Positions 1-12,100 of a DNA stretch of 63,172 nucleotides are shown here, piece by piece. The stretch is from Sphingobacteriales bacterium 44-15 (GTDB lineage: Bacteria; Bacteroidota; Bacteroidia; Chitinophagales; Chitinophagaceae), in NCBI GenBank assembly GCA_001899685.1, contig MKWG01000033.1:1-63172 (forward strand), read 5' to 3'. Below the pieces are notes generated by a model. The model saw nothing but the letters and a program-made list of their open reading frames with translations. It ran no database searches and was not told the DNA's origin. The translations under genes and the position numbers were made by a program. Positions within the stretch are counted from its first letter, which is position 1, and every line of letters begins with the position of its first letter.

Positions 1-54
1 GCTACATTTGAAAACTCTAACTAAACCTGGCACTAAAATATGGGGAGCTTACAG
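1..54. repeat. 54-bp inverted repeat, left copy
   Basis: Bases 1-54 are the exact reverse complement of 63109-63162. The match stops at base 55. The copy covers the last codons (CKLPIF-stop) of the first cassette gene plus 32 bases beyond its stop. Because it starts exactly at base 1, a contig-end or assembly-graph effect is as likely as a real duplicated sequence. Confidence 0.9.
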
Positions 55-251
55 ATCTTTTTGATTTGATCAATCCAGGTTGAATTTTGGGAACGCCCAA
101 TTTCCATGTAAAATGGAACAGCCCACTTTCTAACGAAATCAGGAGATAAGTCCACATCGTTTTTATGAGTCGGTAAGTTGTCAAATGGCGAAACGTGTCT
201 TATTATTGCACCAGCAGAATGAAGTCTTGCCATTTCGTTTAGGTCGTCCAT
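33..251 (-). CDS. hypothetical protein, outermost cassette gene
   Basis: A 72-residue protein starting MDDLNEMARL and ending CKLPIF; no family recognised. The open frame runs upstream to 317, but the ATG at 251 is chosen because it lies 12 bases inside the cassette boundary (minus strand GTTAGCTGC), while codons further upstream lie in the palindrome. There is no signal peptide or membrane segment. The mirrored core expected after its 3' end is not seen before the window edge, so the cassette is either cut by the window or altered by the 54-bp repeat that overlaps its stop codon. The cassette layout supports it being a real gene; its function is unknown. Confidence 0.5.
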   Translation of the reverse strand: MDDLNEMARLHSAGAIIRHVSPFDNLPTHKNDVDLSPDFVRKWAVPFYMEIGRSQNSTWIDQIKKICKLPIF

Positions 252-259
252 AATATAGC

Positions 260-459
260 AGCTAACGAGTAGGTATTGCCGATGGTGGGGAATTAGAATT
301 CCGTCCGCCGGAACCACTGCCTGGCTTTTTGATAAAGTTAAATATTAAAAACTAAAGCTGGGCTTTATTCGTCGAGCCCTGAACCGCAGCACAGCAGAAT
401 TAGCGCTGCTGATTGCTCCAATGTCCAGCCCCACTATTGGCAATACCAATGTTGGCTGC
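260..459 (-). repeat. attC-like site 1 (family III)
   Basis: Imperfect palindrome from AAC (264-266) to GTT (451-453), 190 nt. The arms GGTATTGCC and GGCAATACC pair, followed by a GGTGGGG/CCCCAC pairing further in. It lies 3' of the lipoprotein gene 481-1176 on the minus strand and serves as that cassette's recombination site: its GTTGGCTGC is mirrored by GCAGCCAAC at 1193-1201, on the other side of the gene. Confidence 0.75.
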
Positions 460-480
460 CGTTAATTCAATTTAGGGTGT

Positions 481-1176
481 TCAATATGAAAAAAAGTCTT
501 TTACATTTTTTTCGTCAGCAATTTGACGATGCACCCAGTCAACTATGTAAAGGTTTTCTGCCTTTAAAAATTTTGAAATTTTGTCAACGGAAATTTCTGA
601 ACCCACGTCGGTGTCTGCTATATAAAAGCACAAGACTGAAACAACATTATTTTCGTCTTTTATTCCGTAGTAGTTAAACCCCTGCGATGAAATTGAAAAA
701 CCATTTTTAACTTGCCCAACGTTTCCATTTATATTAATTCCAGCAAGTTTATTTTTTGCGTCCCCTAAATACAGTTGTACTTTTTCAAATGTCAGTGAAA
801 CGGGCTTTGTAATAAGTCGTCTAACGTAAAGATTTTTAAAAGTTGAATAGTCTTTACCTTGATGCATCTCGTGTTCAAAAATGTAAGTAATACTGTCAAT
901 TTCTTGGTCAATCAAATGCTTTTGGTCTTTAGAAACAAATTCAATCTGCCGCCAATCATCCTCAAGAATTTTTAAGTTGTTAGTATCGGATTTATTTTCA
1001 AAATCTGGGAATGTGTTTTCAATGGTCGGAATTGTCATTAATAGCTCGTTAGGGTTTATTGTCTGAACATTTCCTGAACTGTCGGTCGCAATGATTTTGG
1101 TTTCCTTTTGATTGTTGCAGCCAAAAAAGGAAAATAGTCCGGATATTATTCTCATAAAAATTAAAAGTTGTTTCAT
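481..1176 (-). CDS. cassette lipoprotein, unknown function
   Basis: A 231-residue predicted lipoprotein. The start at 1176 (MKQLLIFM) is preferred over an upstream TTG because it opens a signal peptide ending in a lipobox-like FSFFGC with the cysteine near residue 20. The mature part is acidic and soluble; no domain recognised. The gene fills its cassette: 22 bases from the core AAC to the ATG and 27 bases from the stop to the next GTT, so no promoter of its own is apparent and expression probably depends on transcription entering the array from the recombinase side. Lipoprotein cargo recurs in this array (also at 1540, 4028 and 6170). Confidence 0.7.
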   Translation of the reverse strand: MKQLLIFMRIISGLFSFFGCNNQKETKIIATDSSGNVQTINPNELLMTIPTIENTFPDFENKSDTNNLKILEDDWRQIEFVSKDQKHLIDQEIDSITYIFEHEMHQGKDYSTFKNLYVRRLITKPVSLTFEKVQLYLGDAKNKLAGININGNVGQVKNGFSISSQGFNYYGIKDENNVVSVLCFYIADTDVGSEISVDKISKFLKAENLYIVDWVHRQIADEKNVKDFFSY

Positions 1177-1192
1177 GCAGTAAGTTTTAATT

Positions 1193-1393
1193 GCAGCCAA
1201 CGGTACGGCTTGGCGATGTGGCGGTATTCCGTGATTCGTCTGCCCGTAACCGAAGTTAAATATAGAACTAAATGTTCATTGTTTATTCCATTGCCCGGCG
1301 TTATTCGTCGGCTGGTACTGAAGCTGAACAGCGAACAAAAAGTTGAGGATATGTTCGTCGCGCCGCCATATAGCCAAGCCGAATGTTGGCTGC
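1193..1393 (-). repeat. attC-like site 2 (family I)
   Basis: Imperfect palindrome, AAC 1199-1201 to GTT 1385-1387, 189 nt. The outer stem GGCTTGGC/GCCAAGCC is followed by a 4-nt mismatch and TGGCGG/CCGCCA. The loop carries short ATTCGTC words also found in the other sites. It is closely similar to sites 4, 5 and 6. It separates the cassette of 481-1176 from that of 1540-2118. Confidence 0.85.
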
Positions 1394-1539
1394 TGCCTTA
1401 GTCCTGCAACTTTTCCCATTTGTTATAATGTTCTTGAATTGGCCCGTGATTAACTGTTTCTCTTTCTATTCCCAAACTGAGACCATAAAGATGTTTTAAG
1501 ATGTCCATTTTAAAATGTTGCTGGAAGTGCAAAGTAGTT

Positions 1540-2118
1540 TTATCTTTTTTGAGCAATTGCAATTTTGAAACCACTCTTTCCTGGCTCTGTTAAAGGTATT
1601 TCTTCTGTAAAGATGACAATTTTTCCTGAAGAATAAGTTGTCACTTGTCCGCCATACTCATTTTCTTTTTTGCTTAAAATTTCAAAATTTTGTTTTTTTA
1701 TGCCTTTGCTGATTTCAAAGAAATGGTTTTTACTAAAAGAAAGGTATTCTAAAATATACTTTTTGTAATGATAAATCAAAAGCTCTTTTGTTGTCTCGTC
1801 ATTATCTTTAATAAAATATATTCCCTCATTATCAGTTGCTTCGTACCTCCAATTCTTGTTTAATTGGTTCAGATAATTTGAAATAGTTTTTGAGTTAAGA
1901 TTGTCTGTAGTTATAAGAGCAACTAGGTCTTCTATGTCAAGAAAGTTTTTTGTGGTAATTACTTTTTCTACGTCTTTCTGATTATCTTTTTCTTTTTCAC
2001 TTTCTGCCATTGAAACGGCTTTTCCTTTTGCTTTGTCGGATTGCACGGCTTCGTTAGTGTCACAACCAAAAAGTATAAATGTAAGCGATACTGTAAAAAT
2101 CAAAAATCCTTGTCTCAT
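1540..2118 (-). CDS. cassette lipoprotein, unknown function
   Basis: A 192-residue predicted lipoprotein starting MRQGFLIFTV with lipobox ILFGC (Cys about 19). A Lys/Glu-rich low-complexity linker (about residues 25-55) precedes a soluble domain not assigned to any family. Its cassette ends are mirrored: GTTGGCTGCT at 1385-1394 and AGCAGCCAAC at 2181-2190. About 150 bases lie between the stop and the left core, more than in most cassettes here, so a shortened reading frame or non-coding tail is possible. The upstream junction is the vestigial site at 2181-2204. Confidence 0.7.
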   Translation of the reverse strand: MRQGFLIFTVSLTFILFGCDTNEAVQSDKAKGKAVSMAESEKEKDNQKDVEKVITTKNFLDIEDLVALITTDNLNSKTISNYLNQLNKNWRYEATDNEGIYFIKDNDETTKELLIYHYKKYILEYLSFSKNHFFEISKGIKKQNFEILSKKENEYGGQVTTYSSGKIVIFTEEIPLTEPGKSGFKIAIAQKR

Positions 2119-2180
2119 ATTGTTTGAAGCGTTAAAAAAATAATGCGATTTGTTTCGTGTTGAAGGCTATGTCGGAAGAT

Positions 2181-2204
2181 AGCAGCCAACTCAAAATTGG
2201 CTGT
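2181..2204 (-). repeat. vestigial attC-like junction
   Basis: Only the two core words remain: AGCAGCCAAC, a six-base spacer (TCAAAA) and TTGGCTG. The roughly 185-nt palindrome present at every other junction is absent. The left word mirrors the far end of cassette 1540-2118 and the right word mirrors the far end of cassette 2215-2865, so both neighbours are still recognisable as separate cassettes. The simplest reading is internal deletion of one site, which would lock these two cassettes together. Confidence 0.65.
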
Positions 2205-2214
2205 AGACCTGGCT

Positions 2215-2865
2215 TTATATATCGCAAAGGATTTCATATTCGCCTGTGAGACCTTTGTTTATTTGCCACTGCAATTGAGGTTCTCCATAAAGTTTATTTG
2301 CCTCATATTTTTTTGTCAGCCAGTTTTCAAAATTTTCTATTGTTTCTGAATCTCGAATTAAGAGATGTCCTTGTTCTTTTTTTATGATGCTGTCAAACTC
2401 CTTCGGAATAGGAATTGCATTTTCACCAAAGTAATAAAAGTTTGTCGACAGTAAGGTGTACTTCCCGCTAAGATCTCTTGGTTTGTCTTTTTCTTTATGT
2501 AATACTTTTCGAAGTCTGGGAATGTCGCCATAGGAAAAATCGTAAATACTGTCGCCTACAATTCTCTTCCAATCTTTTCTGTCAATAAATGCAATCTTCT
2601 TTTTTTTATTTTCTTTGCAATATTGGTCATAATTCTGCATTGTCATTTTTTTTGTAACCTTCATTGCAAAAACTAATTTTCCTGAATAGTCTTTAGCGGA
2701 GCCATTTTTTGTTTTTACATTTTTAGAGCCTGTGCCAATTATCCAATCGTCAATTGAAGCACTTTGTCTAATTTTTGGCTTACAAACGTTTAAAGTTAAT
2801 TCGTCCCAAAAAGGATTCGGAGCTAGTCCTGTGTCAAATGCAATTATATACGAATAAAGTTTCAT
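2215..2865 (-). CDS. Nmad2-like nucleotide-modification-associated protein
   Basis: A 216-residue soluble protein. The N-terminal pattern (MKLYSYIIAFDTG, APNPFWDELTL, CKPKIRQSA, DDWIIGTGSK) fits the nucleotide modification associated domain 2 (Nmad2) family known from phage and bacterial DNA-hypermodification contexts; this is family recall, not a search. Lysine-rich middle and C-terminal parts follow. The ATG at 2865 lies 35 bases inside the core word. Cassette ends are mirrored over seven bases (TTGGCTG/CAGCCAA). No other modification enzyme is adjacent, so its substrate is unknown. It could protect DNA or act against modified phage DNA; that is inference. Confidence 0.65.
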   Translation of the reverse strand: MKLYSYIIAFDTGLAPNPFWDELTLNVCKPKIRQSASIDDWIIGTGSKNVKTKNGSAKDYSGKLVFAMKVTKKMTMQNYDQYCKENKKKKIAFIDRKDWKRIVGDSIYDFSYGDIPRLRKVLHKEKDKPRDLSGKYTLLSTNFYYFGENAIPIPKEFDSIIKKEQGHLLIRDSETIENFENWLTKKYEANKLYGEPQLQWQINKGLTGEYEILCDI

Positions 2866-2894
2866 AAAATTTAGAAGCTGGTTGATTTAAGCTT

Positions 2895-3091
2895 GCAGCC
2901 AACGAACAGGGCTTTATGCAGGTTGGGTATTAGTATTCCGTCTGCTGATAATCGCTGCCGATTGAAAATATATTGTTGAAGTTAAGAACTAAAGCCGATA
3001 AATATTCGTCTGCCCGAACTGAAGCCGGGATTTTCAATTAGCTGATGATATATTCGTCTGCCCAACTTGCATAAAACCCCATGTTGGCAGT
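2895..3091 (-). repeat. attC-like site 3 (family II)
   Basis: Imperfect palindrome, AAC 2901-2903 to GTT 3083-3085, 185 nt. The stem pairs GGGCTTTATGCAGGTTGGG (2909-2927) with CCCAACTTGCATAAAACCC (3061-3079) with two mismatches. The arm lengths next to AAC and GTT differ by about two bases, an asymmetry of the kind that gives classical attC sites their polarity. Near-identical to site 7. Confidence 0.85.
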
Positions 3092-3097
3092 AGTTTT

Positions 3098-3457
3098 TTA
3101 GCTGTCAATTAAGTTATATTCAGCAAGTGTGTCTGCCCAAATATACTCTTGGTTAATTTTAATAATTTCCTTAACCAATGATGTCAATTTCTTTTGGTCT
3201 AACTTATCCCTCGTTATCTCTTCAACGAGTTTTTTGGACATTTCTGTAGTTAGGGGATTTGCTTTGTCTGTTATGTCACAGCAACCATAGCCGTCAAAAG
3301 ATATTCTACATAATGTAATGTTTCCATCACTTGTTTGGTTGAAATCAATAAACACGGAACCGTCAAGACAACCTAAATAGAAGTCTGCTTTTCTACTGTC
3401 AGGCATTGTTGTTTTAAAAAAACCAAGGGCTTGTCCCATTACAAAGGAATATTCCAT
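3098..3457 (-). CDS. hypothetical protein, second gene of a two-gene cassette
   Basis: A 119-residue acidic soluble protein starting MEYSFVMGQALGFF; no family recognised. It contains three cysteines around residues 30-60, including a Cys-Cys pair, which could bind metal, though no standard motif is visible. It overlaps the end of the upstream gene (3439-3813) by 19 bases, so the two are probably translationally coupled. Only 12 bases separate its stop from the cassette's left core GTT (3083-3085). Confidence 0.6.
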   Translation of the reverse strand: MEYSFVMGQALGFFKTTMPDSRKADFYLGCLDGSVFIDFNQTSDGNITLCRISFDGYGCCDITDKANPLTTEMSKKLVEEITRDKLDQKKLTSLVKEIIKINQEYIWADTLAEYNLIDS

Positions 3458-3813
3458 TTTGTTTCAAAGGTTATCTTCTCTATTTCTCTAACTTGAAAAT
3501 GCTTTTTAAAATCCTCTAAAAGTAAATTGTTGTCTGTCCAATAGCCATAATTGTCTTTATAGGGCATTTTCAAAATTGTGTTCCCTTTATCGTCAAGTCC
3601 GATTTCTCTTTGTGGAATTCCTGAATCAGTTTCAAGTTCAACAAGCCAACTCTTTACATTATCAATTTGGTTCTCATAGTCTGGATTTGCTTTTGGAATA
3701 ACAGTTGTCAAAACTCCTATGATTGCTTTTTTTAAAGACTTCTTTAAAAGTCCGTCTGGCGAAGTTCGGCTTTCGCTTTTTGGTACTTCAAATTGTATGT
3801 AGATTGTCTCCAT
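3439..3813 (-). CDS. hypothetical protein, first gene of a two-gene cassette
   Basis: A 124-residue protein starting METIYIQFEVPKSES; no family recognised. The ATG (3811-3813) lies 12 bases inside the core word CTGCCAAC (3821-3828), which fixes the start. It overlaps the next gene by 19 bases. Both sit between mirrored ends (GTTGGCAGTA at 3083 and TACTGCCAAC ending 3828), so this pair moves as one cassette. Two-gene cassettes are a common form for interacting partners such as effector/immunity or toxin/antitoxin; that is only a possibility here. Confidence 0.6.
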   Translation of the reverse strand: METIYIQFEVPKSESRTSPDGLLKKSLKKAIIGVLTTVIPKANPDYENQIDNVKSWLVELETDSGIPQREIGLDDKGNTILKMPYKDNYGYWTDNNLLLEDFKKHFQVREIEKITFETKWNIPL

Positions 3814-3818
3814 AAAAT

Positions 3819-4021
3819 TACTGCCAACGGTACGGCTTGGCGATGTGGCGGTATTCCGTGATTCGTCTGCCCGTAACCGACGCTAAATATATAACTAAAA
3901 GTTCATTGTTTATTCTATTGCCCGGCGTTATTCGTCAGCCGGAGCTGAAGCCGAACAACGAACAAAAAGCCGAGGATATATTCGTCCAGCCGCCATATAG
4001 CCAAACCGCCTGTTGTAGGCA
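3819..4021 (-). repeat. attC-like site 4 (family I)
   Basis: Imperfect palindrome, AAC 3826-3828 to GTT 4012-4014, 189 nt, closely similar to sites 2, 5 and 6. Left word CTGCCAAC mirrors the far end of cassette 3098-3813; right word GTTGTAGGCA mirrors the far end of cassette 4028-4474. The two words of this one palindrome do not match each other, which shows that the words belong to cassettes and not to the spacer. Confidence 0.85.
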
Positions 4022-4027
4022 GGCTTC

Positions 4028-4474
4028 TCAATCAGTCCAACTACTTGGAATGCCATTCACTTTAAGTCTTCGCTTTGCCAAACTGTCTAACCATTTATTG
4101 TTTAGTTTATCCATAATACATCCTAAAGGTCGCTTTCCATTTGAACCTTCAGCTCTGCGATGTCCTTCCGCAGAGTCAGCAATCAAGCGCTGATTGTCAA
4201 CTGTAGTTAAACTGTCAATAAGTTTAAAATCTTCTTCTGATAAAATTGGTTCTGTAAAGCCGCTGTGGTCAGCATTAATAATTTCTCTAACAGCAGTTGA
4301 ATTGTCATAGCTTTTAATTAGTAGTTGTCGAAAATATGTCAGCTTAAACTGGTTAATGTAAATGTCTTTGTACTGTGCTTTAAGAGACTGTGTCCTACGT
4401 GAATTTTCGCAGGAAATTGTCGTTAGTAAAGTTGTCAAGAAAACAGAATAAATTAAAAGTCTTGTTATCAGCAT
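4028..4474 (-). CDS. cassette lipoprotein, unknown function
   Basis: A 148-residue predicted lipoprotein starting MLITRLLIYSVF; the hydrophobic segment ends in TTISC (Cys about 23). The mature part is basic and helical, with no recognised family. Cassette ends are mirrored over ten bases (GTTGTAGGCA at 4012-4021; TGCCTACAAC at 4521-4530). Thirteen bases separate the stop from the core and about 53 separate the other core from the ATG. Same orientation as all other cassette genes. Confidence 0.7.
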   Translation of the reverse strand: MLITRLLIYSVFLTTLLTTISCENSRRTQSLKAQYKDIYINQFKLTYFRQLLIKSYDNSTAVREIINADHSGFTEPILSEEDFKLIDSLTTVDNQRLIADSAEGHRRAEGSNGKRPLGCIMDKLNNKWLDSLAKRRLKVNGIPSSWTD

Positions 4475-4520
4475 ATATTATTTGATAATTCTTTTTGTGA
4501 GGCGTGTCTGTCGCAATGCT

Positions 4521-4723
4521 TGCCTACAACGGTACGGCTTGGCGATGCGGCGGAAATCCGTGATTCGTCTGCCCGTAACCGATGCTAAATATATAACTAA
4601 AAGTTCATTGTTTATTCTATTGCCCGGCGTTATCCGTCAGCCGGGACTGAAGCCGAGCAGCGAACAAATAGCCGAACATATATTCGTCGCGCCGCCATAT
4701 TGCCAAACCAAATGTTGCCTGTA
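4521..4723 (-). repeat. attC-like site 5 (family I)
   Basis: Imperfect palindrome, AAC 4528-4530 to GTT 4714-4716, 189 nt, a close copy of sites 2, 4 and 6 with scattered substitutions. Left word belongs to cassette 4028-4474; right word GTTGCCTGTA belongs to cassette 4727-5164. Confidence 0.85.
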
Positions 4724-4726
4724 GCC

Positions 4727-5164
4727 TTATGTCATAATAGGTTTGGCTTTGATTGTCCTGATAAAATAAATCAGAAACAAAATTTGTCCAACGATAAAAA
4801 GTGTCCAAGCAACAGGTATTACTTTTATTCGAAATTCTATCGCTCTTATCAATTCATTCTGGTCTGTCAACTGAACGTCTAAAAGAATAGATGGAAACTT
4901 CAAATAAATTATTGTCGGAATTGTCAATACAAAGTGAATTGCAAATAAAGTCCAGTTTGTCTTGTCTGTTCGTTTTGATAATAGCCAGTATCCTATTGTC
5001 ACAAGAAGCAAAACAATCATAACAATAAGTCCCCAAATAAAATACGGCGGAAAAATTGTCGTATGCCAACCTGGAACTACAGAAGTTGCGAAGTCAAATG
5101 AAAATGGGATTGTCAGCAATAGTAAAATAAGAAATGCAAGAAATGGTATGTAGGGTTTTGTCAT
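4727..5164 (-). CDS. cassette membrane protein, four predicted helices
   Basis: A 145-residue integral membrane protein. The ATG at 5164 (MTKPYIPF) is preferred over a GTG 15 codons upstream because it directly precedes the first membrane helix. Four hydrophobic segments are visible: about residues 4-24, 41-62, 74-92 and 116-134. No family recognised; the only conspicuous polar stretch is between helices 3 and 4. Cassette ends GTTGCCTGTA (4714) and TACAGGCAAC (5217-5226) mirror each other over ten bases. It may be a small inner-membrane immunity or stress protein, but nothing in the sequence decides this. Confidence 0.65.
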
Positions 5165-5216
5165 AAATTGTATGTCTTGTCTATGCTGACTTATGTTTGA
5201 TGCTCTCACGAAGGGT

Positions 5217-5420
5217 TACAGGCAACGGTACGGCTTGGCGATGTGGCGGTATTCCGTGATTCGTCTGCCCGTAACCGATGCCAAATTTATAACTAAATGT
5301 TCATTGTTTATTCTATTGCCCGGCGTTATCCGTCAGCCGGGACTGAAGCTGAACAGCGAACAAAAGACGGGCATATATTCGTTCAGCCGCCATATTGGCA
5401 AACCGAATGTTGCACGCCAT
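5217..5420 (-). repeat. attC-like site 6 (family I)
   Basis: Imperfect palindrome, AAC 5224-5226 to GTT 5409-5411, 188 nt, one base shorter than its relatives (sites 2, 4, 5). Left word belongs to cassette 4727-5164; right word GTTGCACGCC to cassette 5421-5915. Confidence 0.85.
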
Positions 5421-5915
5421 TTATTTTGAGTTGTCTATTAAGTATTTTTTCGCCTCAACCATTAATGGGTTATTGTCAATTTCTTGTTCAGCCAAAGTTT
5501 CTTGTTCTTGAACCTTAAAGTCAATTGTGTCGGTCAAATAAATGCCTATGTCATAAATATGTTTAGGGTGCTTGTCGTTTATGAATTGAACTAAATTATA
5601 AACAGCCGCACAAGCATTCAAAGCGTATGAACCTAATTCGTCACTTCCAAAGTCTTCCATGTCTGGTGTGATAGCGTCTAACTGACTTAACGTTTTTACG
5701 ATAAGGCTTTCTTTTATGTCATTAGTTCTCGATTGCTCTACAATGGTTATTGCATCAAGCAAAATGTCTTTGTCGCCCCATTGATATTTCTCTGAAAAGT
5801 CAACGTAGTCAAAATAGAGTCTTTTACAAATGTCAATAGCCAAGGTCAACTGCTTATGGTAGTCAATTGAGAATACCTGTTTATTGAACTTTGTTATAAA
5901 CTCCTGATACGTCAT
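5421..5915 (-). CDS. DUF416 (YjaG-like) protein
   Basis: A 164-residue soluble, helical, acidic protein. The order of motifs (LAIDICKRLYFDY near the start, GDKDILLDAI, then DFGSDELGSYALNACAAVYNL, and NPLMVEAKKYLI near the end) matches the DUF416 family typified by E. coli YjaG, whose function is not established. It is slightly shorter than YjaG. Cassette ends match over 13 bases (GTTGCACGCCATT and its mirror at 5929-5941), the longest mirrored word in the array. The ATG at 5915 lies 23 bases inside the core. Confidence 0.7.
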   Translation of the reverse strand: MTYQEFITKFNKQVFSIDYHKQLTLAIDICKRLYFDYVDFSEKYQWGDKDILLDAITIVEQSRTNDIKESLIVKTLSQLDAITPDMEDFGSDELGSYALNACAAVYNLVQFINDKHPKHIYDIGIYLTDTIDFKVQEQETLAEQEIDNNPLMVEAKKYLIDNSK

Positions 5916-5928
5916 GATGGTTGTGTCT

Positions 5929-6130
5929 AATGGCGTGCAACGAACAGGGCTTTATGCAGGTTGGCAATTAGTATTCCGTCCGCTGCTAACCGCTGCCGAT
6001 TGAGAATATATTGATAAAGTTAAGAACTAAAGTTGATAGATATTCGTCTGCCCGAACTGAAGTTTGGATTTGCAATTAGCTGATGATATATTCGTCCGCC
6101 CAACTTGCATAAAGCCCAATGTTGTACGCT
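5929..6130 (-). repeat. attC-like site 7 (family II)
   Basis: Imperfect palindrome, AAC 5939-5941 to GTT 6121-6123, 185 nt, near-identical to site 3. Left word belongs to cassette 5421-5915; right word GTTGTACGCT to cassette 6170-6688. Confidence 0.85.
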
Positions 6131-6169
6131 GCCTTGGTCTGTCCGCTAAAATGCTTTTAAACATACACT

Positions 6170-6688
6170 TTACTCTCCCCACAAATGATAAACTGCTAAT
6201 TCGCTTTTGTCTTGATTTAATATTACAAAACCATTTTCTTCAATGGAGTTGTCTGTTCCTGGTTCAATTGTTACCCAACCTGTTTTGAATTTGTAAAGTT
6301 TTAATTGTCCGCCAAACCACCTCGGAAAATATTTGTATGTCGAAATGCTTTTGATTGTGTCGTTAAACCCTGTATGGGAAAGTGGAAATATTTCCCTGTT
6401 GCCATAAGTCCATTTTATTGTCTGGTTTTGGTCGAACTCTGAACTATCCGTAAGAGTCCAACCATTTTTTGCTGCAAAGTCAAGAATGTCTTTCGTGTCG
6501 AACGTTAATGATTTTTCGGACTTCCAATAGACGGCTCTGTATCCCCCGTAAGGACCTTGGTCGCTAATATTTTTTACAAGAAAATTTGTCTTGTAGTTTT
6601 TCCAAAAACCTGTCGGTGTAGCTCTGTTGCAAGAAACCAAAGTCACAGTCAAAATAAGGGGCAATAAAATAAAAGGTTTTGATGTCAT
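6170..6688 (-). CDS. cassette lipoprotein, unknown function
   Basis: A 172-residue predicted lipoprotein starting MTSKPFILLPL with lipobox TLVSC (Cys about 20). The mature part is rich in aromatic residues (W, Y, F), suggesting a small beta-rich domain; no family recognised. Cassette ends are mirrored over ten bases (GTTGTACGCT at 6121 and AGCGTACAAC at 6741-6750). About 46 bases lie between the stop and the core and 59 between the other core and the ATG. Confidence 0.7.
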   Translation of the reverse strand: MTSKPFILLPLILTVTLVSCNRATPTGFWKNYKTNFLVKNISDQGPYGGYRAVYWKSEKSLTFDTKDILDFAAKNGWTLTDSSEFDQNQTIKWTYGNREIFPLSHTGFNDTIKSISTYKYFPRWFGGQLKLYKFKTGWVTIEPGTDNSIEENGFVILNQDKSELAVYHLWGE

Positions 6689-6740
6689 TATAAACTGTCA
6701 AAATGGAATATTCAAATTTGAACGAAATGTCAAATAAGGT

Positions 6741-6946
6741 AGCGTACAACGGTTGAGCATTTGTGTTTGTGGCGGAATTTGGAAAACGTCCCGCTGGGAA
6801 CAAATGCTGAATAAAGATATAAAAGTTCATTGTTAATTCTATAGCCCAATTTATAACGTCCGGCCGGAACTACAGATGATAGCCCGGTGAAGCTGAGGCG
6901 GTGTTGTCTGTCCGCCGACATAACACAAATGCACATGTTATAGGCA
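6741..6946 (-). repeat. attC-like site 8 (diverged)
   Basis: Imperfect palindrome, AAC 6748-6750 to GTT 6937-6939, 192 nt. Stem arms GCATTTGTGTT and AACACAAATGC pair perfectly. The sequence differs from families I and II but keeps the length and the layout. Left word belongs to cassette 6170-6688; right word GTTATAGGCA to the SymE cassette. Confidence 0.8.
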
Positions 6947-7035
6947 GGGCAGTCGAGAGTTTCCGGTCTAAATACAAAGTATTGTGTCAAGGTGAATAAA
7001 GCCGCCAATTCGTTTTGAACTGACGGCTTTAGGTC

Positions 7036-7254
7036 TTACTGTTGTTCGTCCAGCCGGATAATGAGTAATTTGTCCATTGTAGTGACTGTCACCCGTTGCT
7101 CGGGGGCAAACCCTAACTTGTCAAGCCAAACGCCACTTAGCCTGATTACCGGAACAATCGTCCGGCTACATTCGTTAAACCTGGTGTCTGGTTGGATTTT
7201 TAAGCTCCTGACCTCTGGTCGTTTGCTTACTTTTTTCTTCTTGGATGTACGCAT
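7036..7254 (-). CDS. SymE-like toxin, first cassette
   Basis: A 72-residue basic protein. The lysine-rich start (MRTSKKKKVSKR) precedes a C-terminal domain with the pattern VPVIRLSGVWLDKLGF...VTVTTMDKLLIIRL, which matches the SymE/AbrB-like fold of the type I SymE toxin family (E. coli SymE is SOS-induced and checked by antisense RNA SymR). This cassette is next to the recombinase, the position expected for the most recently inserted one. About 300 bases lie between the ATG and the cassette core, much more than in the other cassettes, leaving room for a leader or antisense RNA. The start codon lies in one arm of a 17-bp inverted repeat. Confidence 0.65.
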   Translation of the reverse strand: MRTSKKKKVSKRPEVRSLKIQPDTRFNECSRTIVPVIRLSGVWLDKLGFAPEQRVTVTTMDKLLIIRLDEQQ

Positions 7255-7309
7255 AGTCTTTTGAAGATTTTAAATAAGTAGCCCGACAGTGCTGCGTACA
7301 TCCAAGAAG
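7237..7309 (-). promoter_or_regulatory. 17-bp inverted repeat spanning the SymE start
   Basis: Bases 7237-7253 and 7293-7309 are perfect reverse complements, 39 bases apart. On the mRNA the second arm covers codons 1-6 of the SymE-like gene and all but the first base of its ATG, so a hairpin would hide the start. This fits post-transcriptional control of a toxin but is not proven; an antisense RNA over the same stretch is an alternative. Confidence 0.5.
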
Positions 7310-7543
7310 TCTTGAAGTGTGCAGGACTTTCACCTGCTCTCTGTCAGGCATATTGTTAAGTAATAAAACTGTCATTGGAATTGACTTTATGGATTGTACG
7401 CAACACAAATATAAAATAATTTTTGCGTGGTTAATTGTCAAAAGTGGAATTTAATTTTTTTATAGGATGTCAATATGTGAACAGGCTAATAGTATATAGT
7501 CAGTCATGCTGGTTTTATTTTTAGAGAGCTGTTGGTTACGCCT

Positions 7544-7667
7544 TGCCTATAACTCAAAAATATGCGAAAGTTTTAAGGAATAAAAACTTTCGTTTTTTTT
7601 AATATTTAATTGATAAGTAATGCTCTGTAAATATTGTTACGCTCCTTCGAACTTTCGCAAATACAAT
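7544..7667 (-). other. candidate primary recombination site (attI-like region)
   Basis: The stretch between the recombinase stop and the first cassette. TGCCTATAAC (7544-7553) mirrors GTTATAGGCA at 6937, so the first cassette ends here. Beyond it there is no 185-nt palindrome. Instead CGAAAGTTTT (7565-7574) can pair with AAAACTTTCG (7583-7592, followed by eight T on the plus strand), or the overlapping TGCGAAAGTT (7563-7572) with AACTTTCGCA (7650-7659). These mutually exclusive hairpins could be recombinase binding sites or a plus-strand terminator. Confidence 0.45.
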
Positions 7668-8798
7668 TTAGTCAAGCTTTAGATCGTCAAGTGGACTTAT
7701 AATTTGCAACATATCCCGGTTGGTTACATGTAAGTAACGAAGCGTTGTTTTTATATCATTGTGACCAAGCAGCTTCATTATCATGGTAACATCCGTGCCC
7801 TTATCGAGCAAATGAGTAGCAAAACTGTGCCTTAGGGCATGAATGCTTCCGGATTTCATAATTCCCGCTTTTTTCTTTACAGCCATAAGCACCATTTGCA
7901 AACTCCGGGTGCTATACGGCTCGCCTTTTATCTGCCCTGGAAAAAGATAGCCGTCTTTCCCCGGATGATAAGCATTCCAATATTCACGCAGCATTACTAA
8001 TATCACAGGACTCAATGGTACTATACGGTCTTTTTTGCCCTTTGCCCGGCTAATAAAGATGCACATTCGCCTGCTGTCTACAGCACTTGTTTTAAGAGTA
8101 ACCACTTCGCTAACCCGTAAACCAGCACTATAGGCAAGCATCAGCATTACTTTATGTTTTAAGTTACCTGTTGCTTTTATGATGTTTGCTATCTCATCCT
8201 GATTAAAAAAATGCGGCAGCAGTAATGGCTTCTTCGGCCTAGGTATCTCCAAAAAAAATTTCTCCTTTTTCAGCACGTTCTCATAATAAAACTTTAACGC
8301 ACTTATCCTGCCGTGCAGGGTGTTTTCGCTCAGCTTCAACTGGGCAAAGCAATATTGCAGGTACGCTTTGATACGATTAACCGGGAATGTGTCTGCAACT
8401 TCAGCTTTGAGCGCCTGCAAAAATTGACTCATTTCGTTCGTATACGTTTTTATGGTGGATGAGCTGTACGCCTTTAATACCAGCATCTGATGTACTGCCT
8501 GCAATACATGACCATTAACCGGGTGAATGCCCGCAATTGCTTTTAAACTTCCTGCTGTTTTGAGTTGCGGTAACAGCGCCCTGCCAACAGGTGAAGCTGT
8601 AGCAGTATTCTCTTTTTTACCATTATATTGCTTTAGCGCGCTGTTGTCAATACCTGCAACCGGCTTAACGTTCCTGAGCAGGTCATCATAGTATTCTTTT
8701 TCAAAAGGGATATACCAGCATTTGCCGGACTGGCCCCATCTGATATTTCTGGTTTTTCTTACTGCCCGCTGCAGGACTGCCGTATATGGAAAATGCAC
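7668..8798 (-). CDS. tyrosine recombinase of the cassette array
   Basis: A 376-residue tyrosine site-specific recombinase. An N-terminal arm-binding-like segment (about 1-45, with WGQSGKCWYIP) precedes a core-binding SAM-like domain (about 98-180) and the catalytic domain with R228 (AGLRVSEV), a likely Lys near 253-256, H320-x-x-R323 (HALRHSF), H346 (LLGHND) and nucleophile Y355 (LRYLHV). The 19-20-residue insertion that marks integron integrases (IntI) between the last two patches is absent, so it is Xer/phage-like by domain content. It lies 115 bases from the first cassette and points the same way as the cassettes, as in so-called reverse integrons. The GTG start is uncertain: the frame is open upstream, and one extra A in the seven-A run near 8840 would join it to an ATG giving MQNTNRKK. 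Confidence 0.9.
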   Translation of the reverse strand: MHFPYTAVLQRAVRKTRNIRWGQSGKCWYIPFEKEYYDDLLRNVKPVAGIDNSALKQYNGKKENTATASPVGRALLPQLKTAGSLKAIAGIHPVNGHVLQAVHQMLVLKAYSSSTIKTYTNEMSQFLQALKAEVADTFPVNRIKAYLQYCFAQLKLSENTLHGRISALKFYYENVLKKEKFFLEIPRPKKPLLLPHFFNQDEIANIIKATGNLKHKVMLMLAYSAGLRVSEVVTLKTSAVDSRRMCIFISRAKGKKDRIVPLSPVILVMLREYWNAYHPGKDGYLFPGQIKGEPYSTRSLQMVLMAVKKKAGIMKSGSIHALRHSFATHLLDKGTDVTMIMKLLGHNDIKTTLRYLHVTNRDMLQIISPLDDLKLD

Positions 8799-9103
8799 GG
8801 CTATGCATTTTTTGCCGCAATGCTCAAATACCGTTAAGGTTTTTTTCTGTTGGTGTTTTGCATGGTTTGCTGATAAGCGTTACTATAGTATAAGTGTGCA
8901 ACTCGCGATATTCATCGGGGCAGGCGCAAGGGGTGGTGATCAGCGATCGAAAACCGGCTACGAGAAATCCTCATCCTGTTGCGCCGGCTGCCTGCGGCTT
9001 CGCCTCCCTCACTACCATATACACAGCAGCGCAGTAAAAATAATTTTATGAAACGGCGTATTGATCAAAAGATATACAGGATTGAAGTAATTAAATATAA
9101 GCA
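8799..9103. other. intergenic region upstream of the recombinase
   Basis: No convincing gene. The first part (8799-8855) reads in frame with the recombinase and probably encodes its true N-terminus after a one-base frameshift. The rest has a GC-rich segment around 8920-9010 and an AT-rich tail. A recombinase promoter would be expected here, but no clear TTG/TAnnTTTG pair was found. Confidence 0.4.
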
Positions 9104-9143
9104 GTTTTTATAAAAAGAACGTGCGGACTTTGCAGCCCGCACG
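9104..9143 (-). terminator. Rho-independent terminator of the HEAT/DUF1080 gene
   Basis: On the minus strand CGTGCGG and CCGCACG (9120-9126 and 9137-9143) form a 7-bp GC-rich stem with a ten-base loop, followed by TTCTTTTTAT. It lies 27 bases beyond the stop of the gene at 9171. Confidence 0.75.
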
Positions 9144-9170
9144 CATGGAACAGTATCAGGTAATATATGT

Positions 9171-12100
9171 CTATTTTTTCTTCTTCGCTTTCTTCACAGC
9201 CTTGGCCGGTGCAGCAGCGGGCTGGTTCAGGTCTCTCACCCGGATATTGCGAAAATATAAAATATCCCCATGCCCGAGAAAACCGATATGACCGGTTTTG
9301 TTGAACAAGCCCGGGTGCTCCCTGTGATCAGGAGTGCCGTTCTTCGTGGCTTCGGCTATATCCCCGTCCACTATCACGGTTCCGTTGAGCGTCACTTTGA
9401 TATGGTTGCCTTTGGCTTCTATCTCTTCCTGGTTCCACTCTCCTACCGGCTTGAGGTAGCCCCGTTTTGCAGGAATGATACCATATACCGAACCATGGTA
9501 CTGGTAAGGCTTGAGGTCTTTGTAAATATCGGCGTCATTGTCCAGCACCTGTATTTCCATACCCTGGTACGCAGCATCGCCTGTGAGCGGCGCTCTTATG
9601 CCTACCCCGTTGTTGGCGCCGGGAGTTAACTTAAATTCAAAACGGAACACAAAATCACTGTATTCATCGTTCGTGTACAGGTTACCGTTACCTCCGCGTT
9701 TGGGATATACGGCTATAGTACCGTCTTCAATAGTATAGGCGGTTTTATTACCGGTCCATTCGTGCAGGCTGGTACCGTCAAACAGCACCTTGTATCCTTC
9801 TTTCTTTTCATCGCCTGTAAGCGTGTAAGGCGTCGGGCGGGGGATCTCTCTTACATAAATATCCCTGTACGCTACATAAGTGCCATGCGCCTGCAGCTCA
9901 ATCTGTTCTTCGGGGAAGATGGGCAGGCTCCTGTCCCAGTAATTTTCGAGCGGCACGCCATTCACTACCAGCTTGCCGTTGAGATATACGGTTACAAGGT
10001 CGCCAACCATAGTAATATGGAAAGTGTTCCAGTCGCCGATGGCGTTATCAGCCAGCACCAGTGGCTTGCTTGCATTCTTCTGGTTGTTGTACAATCCGCC
10101 TGAGCCTACCTGGGCGCCTACATCTGTGCGTGAGGTATCCCATATCTGCACCTGCGGTGAACCTCTCAGGTATATACCGGCATCACCCTGCGGCGTGATC
10201 TTCCAGTCTACATACATTTCAAAATCACCATATTTTTTATCGGTGCAGAGATTGTTGCCATGCCCGTTGAATACCAGCAATCCGTCTTTCACGCTCCAGC
10301 CGGCACGCATCTCTTCGTCGGCTTTTACCTGTGCAGCCGCCAGCGTTTTTGCATCCATCTTCGCTCTTTCGATGGGATTAGCCACAAGTCCTTTCCACCC
10401 CGTGAGGTCTTTGCCGTTGAACAAAGGAACAAACCCTTTGCCTTCAGGCATTGCCGCCAGGTGCTTGCGGATAGCTTCCGTCTCGTAAGTAGCTTCCGAG
10501 CCTTTGAGCACGGTAATAGTCTTTTCGAGCAGGGCACGCACATTGTCGCCATAAATATTTTTATCGCCTAAGGCAATGTTCATTACGGCGGAACCTGCCT
10601 GTGACTTCAGATCAGGATTGTCCAGAAACTGTCCTGCATATAGCAACGCAGGGAAGGTCTTGCATTTTTCCACCTGCGACAGGATGGCTTTTTTCTGATC
10701 GGTGGTTTGTGCAAAATCCATGGCATCCCGTAGCATGATCAGCTTTTCATCCCCGGTATTATCAGATACGCTGATCTGCTTTACAAAAGCATCTACCGCA
10801 TCTTTGGCATAAGCGCCGCTGCCCGGCTGGTTAAGTATTTTGTACAACTGGTAAGTGGCAAGTCCGCCTTTCCAGTCAGCAAGCGAGGCAATGACAGCTT
10901 TCTTAGCAGCATCGTCGCCGTTGGTAAAAGCATCACCTGCTGTTTGCAGGTTGTCTTTGCCGCCAATGCCCGACAGCACATTATAGAACTGAGATCTCTG
11001 GGCCGCAGGCACTTTATTCACCAGGTCGAGCGCTGCTTTGTTGCGGTCGGCTTCATTGGGAATACCATTGAATGCTGCCACCATGGCATCCTGCAGGTCG
11101 GATACATCTTTTTTATCTTTTGCCGCCAGCAGGAGCGGGTACAGTTGCCCTATTTGCTGAGGCGTTACTATCTGCTTCACTGCGGCGCGTGCAGGGGCGC
11201 TTATATCCGCATCGCTGCTGTTCATAAGGGGCAATATCTCTGATATACGGCTGTTGTCGCCGCGTGCGCCAAGCACATCAATGACAGCAGCTTTGCCGGC
11301 AGGAGAAGCGCTGCCAAGCGCAGCACCTACAGCAGACACTACATTTTCACCTTTTATAGACAGCAACGCTGATTTTACCGCCGTTGCTTCCCGGGTATCT
11401 GCCGTTTTGAGCAATCCCAGTAAAGCAGGCAGGGCATCCTGCTGTCCGATCTTTCCGGCAGCAGCAATGGCAGCAAGCTTCAGGGATGCATCTTTACTGC
11501 CTGTAGCCTTAAGCACTGCAGGCAACGCTGCTTTTACATCATTGTTGCCAAACATTTTAATCATTTCAGCCTGGGCAGGAGCAGAAGATTTGCCGAATGT
11601 CTTTAACCATGCAGCAGTATTGGCTTCATTGAGATAAGGCTGTGCAAACTTGAGCGCGGCTTCACGATACTCCGCATTCTTATCTTTCATGGCGCCGGTA
11701 AGCAGGCTGATATTTTCAGCGCCGTCAATATCAGTGAGTATTTTCAACGCGGCGGTACGGGTATGCACCAGGTTGTCGGCACCTGCTTTTTTAAGCAGCG
11801 CTGCGGCGGCTTTGGAAGCATCTGCAGTTTGCCCGTTAGCTACGAGCTGATTCAAATATTTGAGATAAGAAGAGGTAGCATTGGTAACATCGTAAGTATA
11901 CCCGCTTTTGGCAGCAGCATCGCTGAAGATCTTCAGGGAAGAAGGATCAGCGATCTCAGCCAGAGCGTGCAAAGCTGTTTTTGCCAGCCCGGGATCAGCA
12001 GCATTCGCAAAAGCGCTGATCGCCGGTACCGCAGGCTGATATTTTGTATAGCCCAATGACTCAATGATAGAAAGTCGCGCGTTGCCGGAGGCGCTGCCCA

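Follow-up and report, generated by a model that had tools for sequence, protein, structure and literature searches.

Sequence evidence for an integron-like gene-cassette platform with a different tyrosine recombinase in a Chitinophagaceae genome

Introduction

Integrons are the best known route by which bacteria collect and shuffle genes, and a locus at one end of a contig of Sphingobacteriales bacterium 44-15 (Bacteroidota; Chitinophagaceae) raises the question of whether such a system can operate with a tyrosine recombinase that lacks the additional domain (I2) of the integron integrase IntI. The window, by which we mean the whole stretch of DNA analyzed, spans positions 1-63172 of contig MKWG01000033.1 (G000:C33 in our numbering, G000 being the host genome of 6.0 Mb in 46 contigs). 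Its positions 1-7553 hold ten minus-strand cassettes and nine junctions, which can be read directly from the sequence. Eight of the nine junctions are palindromes of 185-192 nucleotides (nt) that run from AAC to GTT on the plus strand, and a tyrosine recombinase gene stands at the end of the array (7668-8798, minus strand). A preliminary description, made from the letters alone, had reported this layout and proposed either a functional analogue of the integron or a distinct integron lineage. The layout is as described, and the proposal survives the tests made.

We assign a probability of about 0.87 to the reading that this is a sedentary chromosomal gene-capture platform, integron-like in its organization and associated with a different tyrosine recombinase. 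Its boundaries as units, the rule by which cassette ends pair, an attI-like site, an asymmetry between the strands, the recurrence of an exact cassette in two genera and the linkage of the sites to one recombinase clade carry this reading, all of them observed at the level of sequence. The comparisons support a distinct integron lineage, one that works like an integron in these respects and departs from it at the additional domain of IntI.

Cassette ends pair with each other

The bases flanking the AAC and GTT cores vary between junctions, and in the window those that follow one GTT match those that precede the next AAC in 9/9 cassettes, over 8-13 contiguous positions including the core. When each arm is compared with the others, the same-cassette pair is best or tied best each time, with ties at junctions S1 and S3; other arm pairs in the window mostly match at 3-6 positions, the similar S1-S4 arms reaching 9. 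The pattern extends to a set of 141 sites from 46 sources, of which 12 without an AAC and 16 without a GTT near the expected place were dropped before counting. Here, at least five contiguous pairs beyond the core occur in 79 of 89 testable same-cassette pairs. The corresponding share is 3.4% for 119 same-junction pairs, 5.1% for 750 other pairs within a locus and 4.4% for 20,000 pairs drawn at random (Fisher test, ~1e-69 from rounded counts). The ten same-cassette pairs with fewer than five paired bases were excluded from the position counts that follow. Pairing extends to position 12 and then drops to about chance; the arm stem is 15 base pairs (bp) long, with the core GTTRNNNGYAA and a G.T pair at position 8 on the bottom strand. 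In two cassettes the core is altered, and at both ends of the same cassette: the start reads GTA and the end TAC. Such pairing within a cassette fits excision as a circle and re-insertion with a crossover at the core, and would not be expected had the palindromes jumped between fixed genes.

As a control we used twenty IntI loci of the same phylum, of which seven gave arrays of at least four cassettes under a rule of four arm bases, amounting to 39 cassettes; the same arm rule retained 16 of 19 chosen arrays and 111 cassettes of the present system, with a site-length limit of 260 as against 160 for IntI. The paired fraction at arm positions 5-8 of the IntI cassettes is 0.95, 0.95, 0.92 and 0.72, and beyond these it is 0.21-0.44, whereas the values for the present system are 0.02 (position 8), 0.68-0.80 (positions 9-12) and 0.09 (position 13). 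Hence, the two ends of an IntI cassette match one another as well, over fewer arm positions and without the fixed mismatch. The arm letters differ as well: position 5 is G in 128/153 cassettes here versus 14/39 in the IntI set, and position 7 is A in 107/153 versus 12/39. The longest open reading frame (ORF) lies in the forward direction in 140 of these 153 cassettes.

The cores had been called non-canonical, and beyond GTT/AAC this holds. With respect to the R''/R' consensus RYYYAAC/GTTRRRY, AAC/GTT is present and the RRRY part is found in 10/153 cassettes and in 0/8 of the window cassettes in the set. Of the IntI control cassettes, too, only 7/39 follow the RRRY rule, and we dropped it as a discriminator.

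The sites are asymmetric between strands

In 61 of 79 cases, arm position 8 reads A opposite C on the top strand and hence G.T, a wobble pair, on the bottom strand; a Watson-Crick pair occurs once and another mismatch in 17, with the right-hand base being A in 79/79. When the sites are reconstituted, the bottom strand is the more stable one in 68/84, with one tie (Wilcoxon 1.8e-10). An inner stem is recognizable in 93 sites, and 52 of these have a top-strand G.T, that is, an A.C mismatch on the bottom strand, mainly at stem positions 4-5; the remaining inner-stem mismatches are mainly G.T pairs of the bottom strand. The spacer is likewise asymmetric, most commonly 1 nt versus 5 nt. For integron attC sites, the accessible text of PMC2727003 describes use of the bottom strand and unpaired bases that set the choice of strand; by analogy, the corresponding features of the attC-like sites may act in the same way.

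An attI-like site downstream of the recombinase gene

Of 24 loci, 22 have the arm partner of the first array site at a GTT downstream of the recombinase stop codon, matching at 6 or 7 of 7 positions; the search for such a partner failed at the other two (L103 and L075). Stop codon and GTT are 52-958 nt apart, and in 15 of the 22 loci the distance falls within 93-134 nt. The 20 bases preceding this GTT share a motif near TCGTATATTTATGA, and a leave-one-out profile of the motif recovers the same GTT in 21/22 loci, the mismatch at L106 apparently being that motif displaced by one base. In 34 of 98 further loci the profile scores above the 95th percentile of an upstream control. In the window, arm complementarity, the leave-one-out profile and homology to the locus L109 place the attI-like site at 7551-7573 (minus strand), where in gene direction AAACTTTCGCATATTTTTGA is followed directly by GTT, 114 nt beyond the recombinase stop. 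Together with the first cassette it carries the system out to position 7573.

Comparisons of related loci bear on the same boundary. The recombinase of L109, the nearest relative, is 72% identical to that of the window, and the attI region is 74% identical over 193 nt, after which homology stops 8 nt past the GTT. Within the 2.8 kilobases (kb) available from L109, the DNA in common with the window array consists of attC-like sites and includes no cassette gene. Among 38 recombinase pairs of at least 70% identity, downstream homology ends at most 8 nt past the shared GTT in seven, including window/L109, L099/L115, L115/L118 and L156/L158.

The one junction without a palindrome, S3 (2181-2204, minus strand), has TTTTGA directly before GTT, like the end of the attI-like site. 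According to the available portion of PMC12901181, class 1 and class 2 integrons are known to include delta-attI cassettes; S3 may therefore be delta-attI-like.

Cassettes recur as units in other genomes

A DNA search with the array over 146 genomes of the family returned single cassettes at 76-84% identity in five of them (G055, G058, G063, G052 and G009). Two cassettes are matched in G055, at separate places, and the remaining matches are to the sites. The first cassette (6748-7553, minus strand), made up of a weakly SymE-like gene (7036-7254) and its downstream palindrome S9, is found as the exact unit in G055, a genome of another genus, with 84% DNA identity. The match extends from the G of GTT to the GTT of the downstream site, and its ends are sharp: over 40 bases on each side, identity rises from 25% to 90% on entering the unit at its start and falls from 97.5% to 30% on leaving it at its end. 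The neighbors differ, an attI-like site preceding the cassette in the window and another site preceding it in G055. With GTT boundaries and different neighbors in the two genomes, the cassette can be delimited as a gene plus its downstream site.

That the locus is a gene-capture system, as had been suggested, is borne out insofar as end pairing and the recurrence of single cassettes indicate that cassettes move as units. A gene order fixed among relatives would have spoken for an immobile cluster; what we find are single cassettes matching other genomes of the family and, in the 2.8 kb available from L109, only attC-like sites in common. At the protein level, one cassette product from the Flavobacterium enshiense locus L129 and one from a Kriegella array (L139) share 83% identity, and beyond this only one other pair between loci passed the 45% filter (L091/L098, 51%).

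A recombinase without the IntI insertion

The recombinase, 376 residues from its GTG start, matches the Pfam families Phage_integrase (1.6e-37) and Phage_int_SAM_4 (3.6e-9). Its NCBIfam scores all lie below the respective cut-offs: 189 for XerA_Arch (220), 171 for XerC (335) and 158 for XerD (330). The integron integrase profile TIGR02249 gives 164.9 bits against a cut-off of 265, and no match to this profile at E<=1e-50 was found in the host genome. All 24 of 24 aligned relatives match the XerA_Arch, XerC and integron integrase profiles. The nearest named recombinase is that of Terrimonas sp. NS-102 (72%), and a search of plasmids with the recombinase gave 252 records, every one below 60% identity.

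The preliminary description had the recombinase lacking the IntI-specific insertion, and this proves correct. From the KKDR..LSP block to the next conserved block there are 28-33 residues in 119/119 recombinases and 70 in 30/30 IntI proteins, two recombinases of fewer than 250 residues having been excluded from this count and from the tree; the same interval measures 33 and 36 residues in two Xer-like proteins of the host's own genome. An alignment to the IntI4 structure 2a3v places a gap in the recombinase at the additional domain of IntI, which is situated around patch III. In a tree of 136 rows, which takes in 15 of the 30 IntI and only two of the genome's own Xer-like proteins, a branch with support 100 separates the 15 IntI rows from the rest, and the 119 recombinases stand opposite with support 92. 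As the meeting of IntI and Xer was flagged as possible long-branch attraction, the rows are few and the array label is loose (one chance link was allowed), we leave the sister group of the clade unclaimed.

The predicted structure has a mean predicted local distance difference test score of 82.5 and a predicted template modeling (TM) score of 0.53. Foldseek places IntI4 (2a3v) on top with an E-value of 5e-16, followed by XerA at 2e-15, the whole-chain TM-scores of both being only ~0.4. Relative to Xer, the window protein has an extra N-terminal region of ~90 residues. Most aligned relatives start ~25-30 residues before its GTG, and the frame is still open upstream (8799-8870, with a run of A); the exact start and N-terminus are thus uncertain.

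Distribution and linkage of sites and recombinase

A covariance model (R1) was built from 15 sites of the host genome (eight in the window, six on contig C2 and one on contig C41), rather than from the eight window sites as had been proposed. It matches 96 of the 146 family genomes at E<=1e-4, so the sites are not chance occurrences; the model is biased to the host genome and family, and the strict filters used at the scale of the phylum lose some weak matches. In the family, a recombinase at E<=1e-40 is found in 57 genomes, sites in 96 and both in 53, that is, sites in 53/57 genomes with the recombinase versus 43/89 without. In a draw of 296 genomes from the phylum, sites occur in 40, the recombinase profile in 93 and both in 29, so that the profile is present in 29/40 genomes with sites versus 64/256 without. 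The co-occurrence with close recombinase relatives that the preliminary description anticipated is thus seen at both scales. Palindromes spread through genomes without any link to this recombinase would have told against it; they track the recombinase family, and they also occur without it.

We fetched 40 of 67 other places bearing the recombinase, some picked because sites were already known on the contig. Together with the window, 26 of these loci have sites and 15 have none, several of the latter with little downstream sequence; in 24 of the 26, all sites are on the recombinase strand and 3' of the recombinase. Chains of at least two linked cassettes lie downstream of the recombinase at 29/121 loci and upstream at 5/121, versus 2/363 shuffles. 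At least one link arises by chance in 91/363 shuffles, and loci with one or two links (e.g., L165, L173 and L181) are accordingly only probable. Long arrays are present at named loci of Flavobacterium difficile, F. enshiense and Arundinibacter roseus, and at some other loci the sites are ~121-125 nt long. Because contigs end in or beside arrays (base 1 of the window contig, C41 and several relatives), array lengths and recombinase-array links are probably undercounted.

The F. difficile array (L137, 11097-20514) has 12 linked cassettes with near-identical sites of ~121 nt whose arms differ. The repeats of the Vibrio superintegron are much like these. A locus from another family of the same class (L259, G357:C30, family f5) has a 194-bit site close to those of the window and three arm-matched cassettes, a similarity for which transfer between families is a possible explanation. 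Outside the Bacteroidota, a GTT beside the recombinase and one to three arm-matched cassettes are seen in Nitrospirota metagenome-assembled genomes (MAGs), in Paenibacillus amylolyticus and on a Micrarchaeota MAG contig; these loci (L173, L165, L156 and L181) are weaker evidence, and MAG contigs can be misassigned.

Relation to known systems

Like IntI integrons, whether of classes 1-3 or sedentary chromosomal ones such as the Vibrio superintegron, the system has an attI-like site beside the recombinase, one gene and one site per cassette, AAC...GTT boundaries, arms matched within the cassette and a bottom strand that folds better. It also shares with them arrays without an integrase, comparable to clusters of attC sites lacking integrases (CALIN), and one delta-attI-like junction. 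Unlike them, it has a recombinase without the I2 or additional domain, which reads in the cassette direction with the attI-like site on its 3' side, and a 15-bp arm stem with a bottom-strand G.T and the core GTTRNNNGYAA. The window sites measure 185-192 nt versus 57-142 nt for integron attC in the part of PMC2727003 available to us; reverse-oriented IntI is noted for Spirochaetota in the accessible text of PMC9668308. With XerA, XerC and XerD the recombinase shares the core-binding and catalytic domains, its best NCBIfam model being XerA_Arch; it differs from them in the linked cassette arrays, the attI-like site, the N-terminal addition and scores below every Xer cut-off.

The accessible portions of PMC4792948 and PMC9024848 treat I2 as specific to integron recombinases. 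In their integron-like subgroup of simple tyrosine recombinases, Smyshlyaev et al. (2021; PMC8138268) find the catalytic-domain insertion not fully conserved and call it essential for integron function, and the available text describes no cassette arrays for the members without it. Relatives of the window recombinase may be filed in this subgroup, as judged by its description. Our own literature search, which had preprints and most subscription papers outside its reach, returned no paper describing integrons without I2, or arrays of this kind in Bacteroidia.

Integrons had been described as rarely reported in Bacteroidota. A survey with an IntI profile and a canonical attC model found very few complete integrons in Bacteroidetes, namely only In0 in an earlier study and then one in Salinibacter ruber, as far as the accessible text of PMC9024848 goes. 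Rarity does not extend to the integrase in the phylum draw, where IntI scores over the cut-off in 84/296 genomes; of the 86 genomes with a match, however, 85 share only the phylum with the window and one the order, placing nearly all matches (85/86) outside its class. Sites and IntI occur together in five genomes of the phylum draw.

A proposed mechanism and its alternatives

In the mechanism that we propose, cassettes would exist as circles carrying one gene, or sometimes two, and one attC-like site. Within the circle the two cassette ends would pair to form a 15-bp stem beside the longer palindrome, and this would allow the bottom strand of the site to fold. For insertion, the recombinase would act on the folded site and on the attI-like site, which usually lies ~90-135 bp beyond the recombinase gene, and link the two by a cut within or beside GTT; excision of cassettes by the recombinase would go via attC x attC recombination. 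We infer that the neighboring recombinase catalyzes the reaction on a single-stranded substrate, that it cuts between G and TT and that it recombines folded DNA without an I2 domain.

Several observations weigh against the gene-capture reading. The case for cassette exchange is built wholly on comparing sequences, and the co-occurrence counts are not independent since the genomes are related. Sites are present without the recombinase at E<=1e-40 in 43 family genomes, and contig C2 of the host, which bears a second array, yielded no relative of the window recombinase. Conversely, 15/41 recombinase loci have no site; at L086 and L107 there are sites on the opposite strand, and at the Flavobacteriaceae loci L139, L144 and L145 the arrays, likewise on the opposite strand, lie ~1-5 kb away on the upstream side of the recombinase. 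The attI profile does not exceed the control at 64 of the 98 further loci, some of them distant relatives or cut by contig ends. In the other 31 of the 38 recombinase pairs, downstream homology ends by 15 nt past the stop codon in 18 and elsewhere in six, with six giving no hit and one being too short.

One alternative is an array that is a relic or passenger, its cassettes moved in trans by another recombinase while the neighbor has some other job, such as dimer resolution or service to an unrelated element. In its favor, arrays without a recombinase do exist, NCBIfam names the relatives XerA-like, and the genome has three other tyrosine recombinase matches. We nevertheless judge this account improbable, given the same-strand, 3' position of the sites at 24/26 loci, the conserved attI-like site beside the recombinase, the end of downstream homology at or within 8 nt past GTT in 7/38 pairs and the co-occurrence at the scale of both family and phylum. 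Still less probable is an ordinary IntI integron that is merely hard to recognize. The shared logic of attI, cassette plus attC, GTT/AAC core and better bottom-strand fold would agree with it, as would a common C-terminal SPL and the first rank of IntI4 in Foldseek, just ahead of XerA and with TM-scores of only ~0.4 over the query. Against it stand the insertion, missing from all 119 recombinases and 70 residues long in all 30 IntI, a profile score of 164.9 bits where 265 are required, the branch of support 100 that sets the 15 IntI rows apart, and the IntI arrays themselves, which have neither the fixed position-8 mismatch nor pairing at positions 9-12.

Were the palindromes instead repeats that had landed between ordinary genes, or else structured RNAs or terminators, one would understand their strong hairpins, the similarity of the copies and their presence once per intergenic gap. 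The outer arms, however, pair across the cassette rather than across the palindrome; an RNA would correspond to the top strand, the less stably folding of the two in 68/84 sites; Rfam gives no match up to an E-value of 1 in window positions 1-9200; and gene and palindrome recur together with sharp ends. This explanation is scarcely credible, and on the strength of arm pairing, strand folding and the recurrence of the unit in G055 we reject it as the main account.

Taking the gene-capture platform as the preferred reading, we are inclined, on balance, to go further and regard it as a member of a second, widespread integron branch in which cassettes recombine as folded DNA without an I2 domain. 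The same arrangement recurs in many related bacteria and looks like an overlooked branch of gene-swapping systems. Such a branch would be common in Bacteroidota, probably present in Nitrospirota and Bacillota (Paenibacillus) and possibly in archaea, with a core code of its own (15-bp arm stem, GTTRNNNGYAA and position-8 wobble) and a large pool of cassettes missed by IntI-based tools. With sites in two thirds of the sampled family genomes (96/146), a sizeable reservoir of mobile genes whose functions are unknown may have gone unnoticed. The branch could represent an I2-less intermediate or an independent route; an evolutionary argument reportedly made by Escudero et al. in 2016 calls for one or the other. 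An I2-less cassette system would make it directly testable whether I2 is required for recombining folded single-stranded DNA and how this capacity arose from Xer-like enzymes, and its unusual core and stem could yield new recombination tools.

Gene content of the arrays

All features of the window array lie on the minus strand. The array is cut at window base 1, where the contig begins, and the tenth cassette, with an ORF at 33-317, is cut with it. It is followed by S1 (264-453, 190 nt), a cassette gene without a Pfam or NCBIfam family (481-1164), S2 (1199-1387, 189 nt) and a gene that looks lipoprotein-like by eye and reaches no Pfam or NCBIfam cut-off (1540-2118). Beyond S3 come a gene for a nucleotide modification associated domain 2 protein (Nmad2; 2215-2865, Pfam 7.3e-55), S4 (2901-3085, 185 nt) and a cassette with two overlapping ORFs (3098-3813; ORFs 3098-3457 and 3439-3813) that have no Pfam family above cut-off. 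S5 (3826-4014, 189 nt) precedes another gene that is lipoprotein-like by eye, with no Pfam family (4028-4474), and S6 (4528-4716, 189 nt) precedes a gene that is membrane-protein-like by eye, with no Pfam family above cut-off (4727-5161), whose cassette is singly matched in G058 and G055. After S7 (5224-5411, 188 nt) there is a DUF416 gene (5421-5915, Pfam 1.3e-13), and after S8 (5939-6123, 185 nt) a third gene that is lipoprotein-like by eye, again with no Pfam family (6170-6688); its cassette alone is matched at 81% DNA identity in G063. S9 (6748-6939, 192 nt) closes the first cassette. Each of these eight sites is a palindrome of the AAC...GTT form.

Of the cargo named in the preliminary description, the DNA-modification protein is confirmed as Nmad2, and the toxin-like assignment is weak, the SymE-like call on the first-cassette gene scoring 21 bits against a cut-off of 132. 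The lipoproteins are recognizable by eye only, and most of the other genes are unnamed. PADLOC gave no match among the ten cassette proteins. The surroundings look chromosomal, with a transpeptidase, a Mur ligase and FtsA at 32-45 kb.

The second array of the same type in the host genome lies at ~255.5-262 kb of contig C2 (G000:C2; L011, 5480-12030), and one of its cassettes resembles, by eye, a HigBA-like toxin-antitoxin pair.

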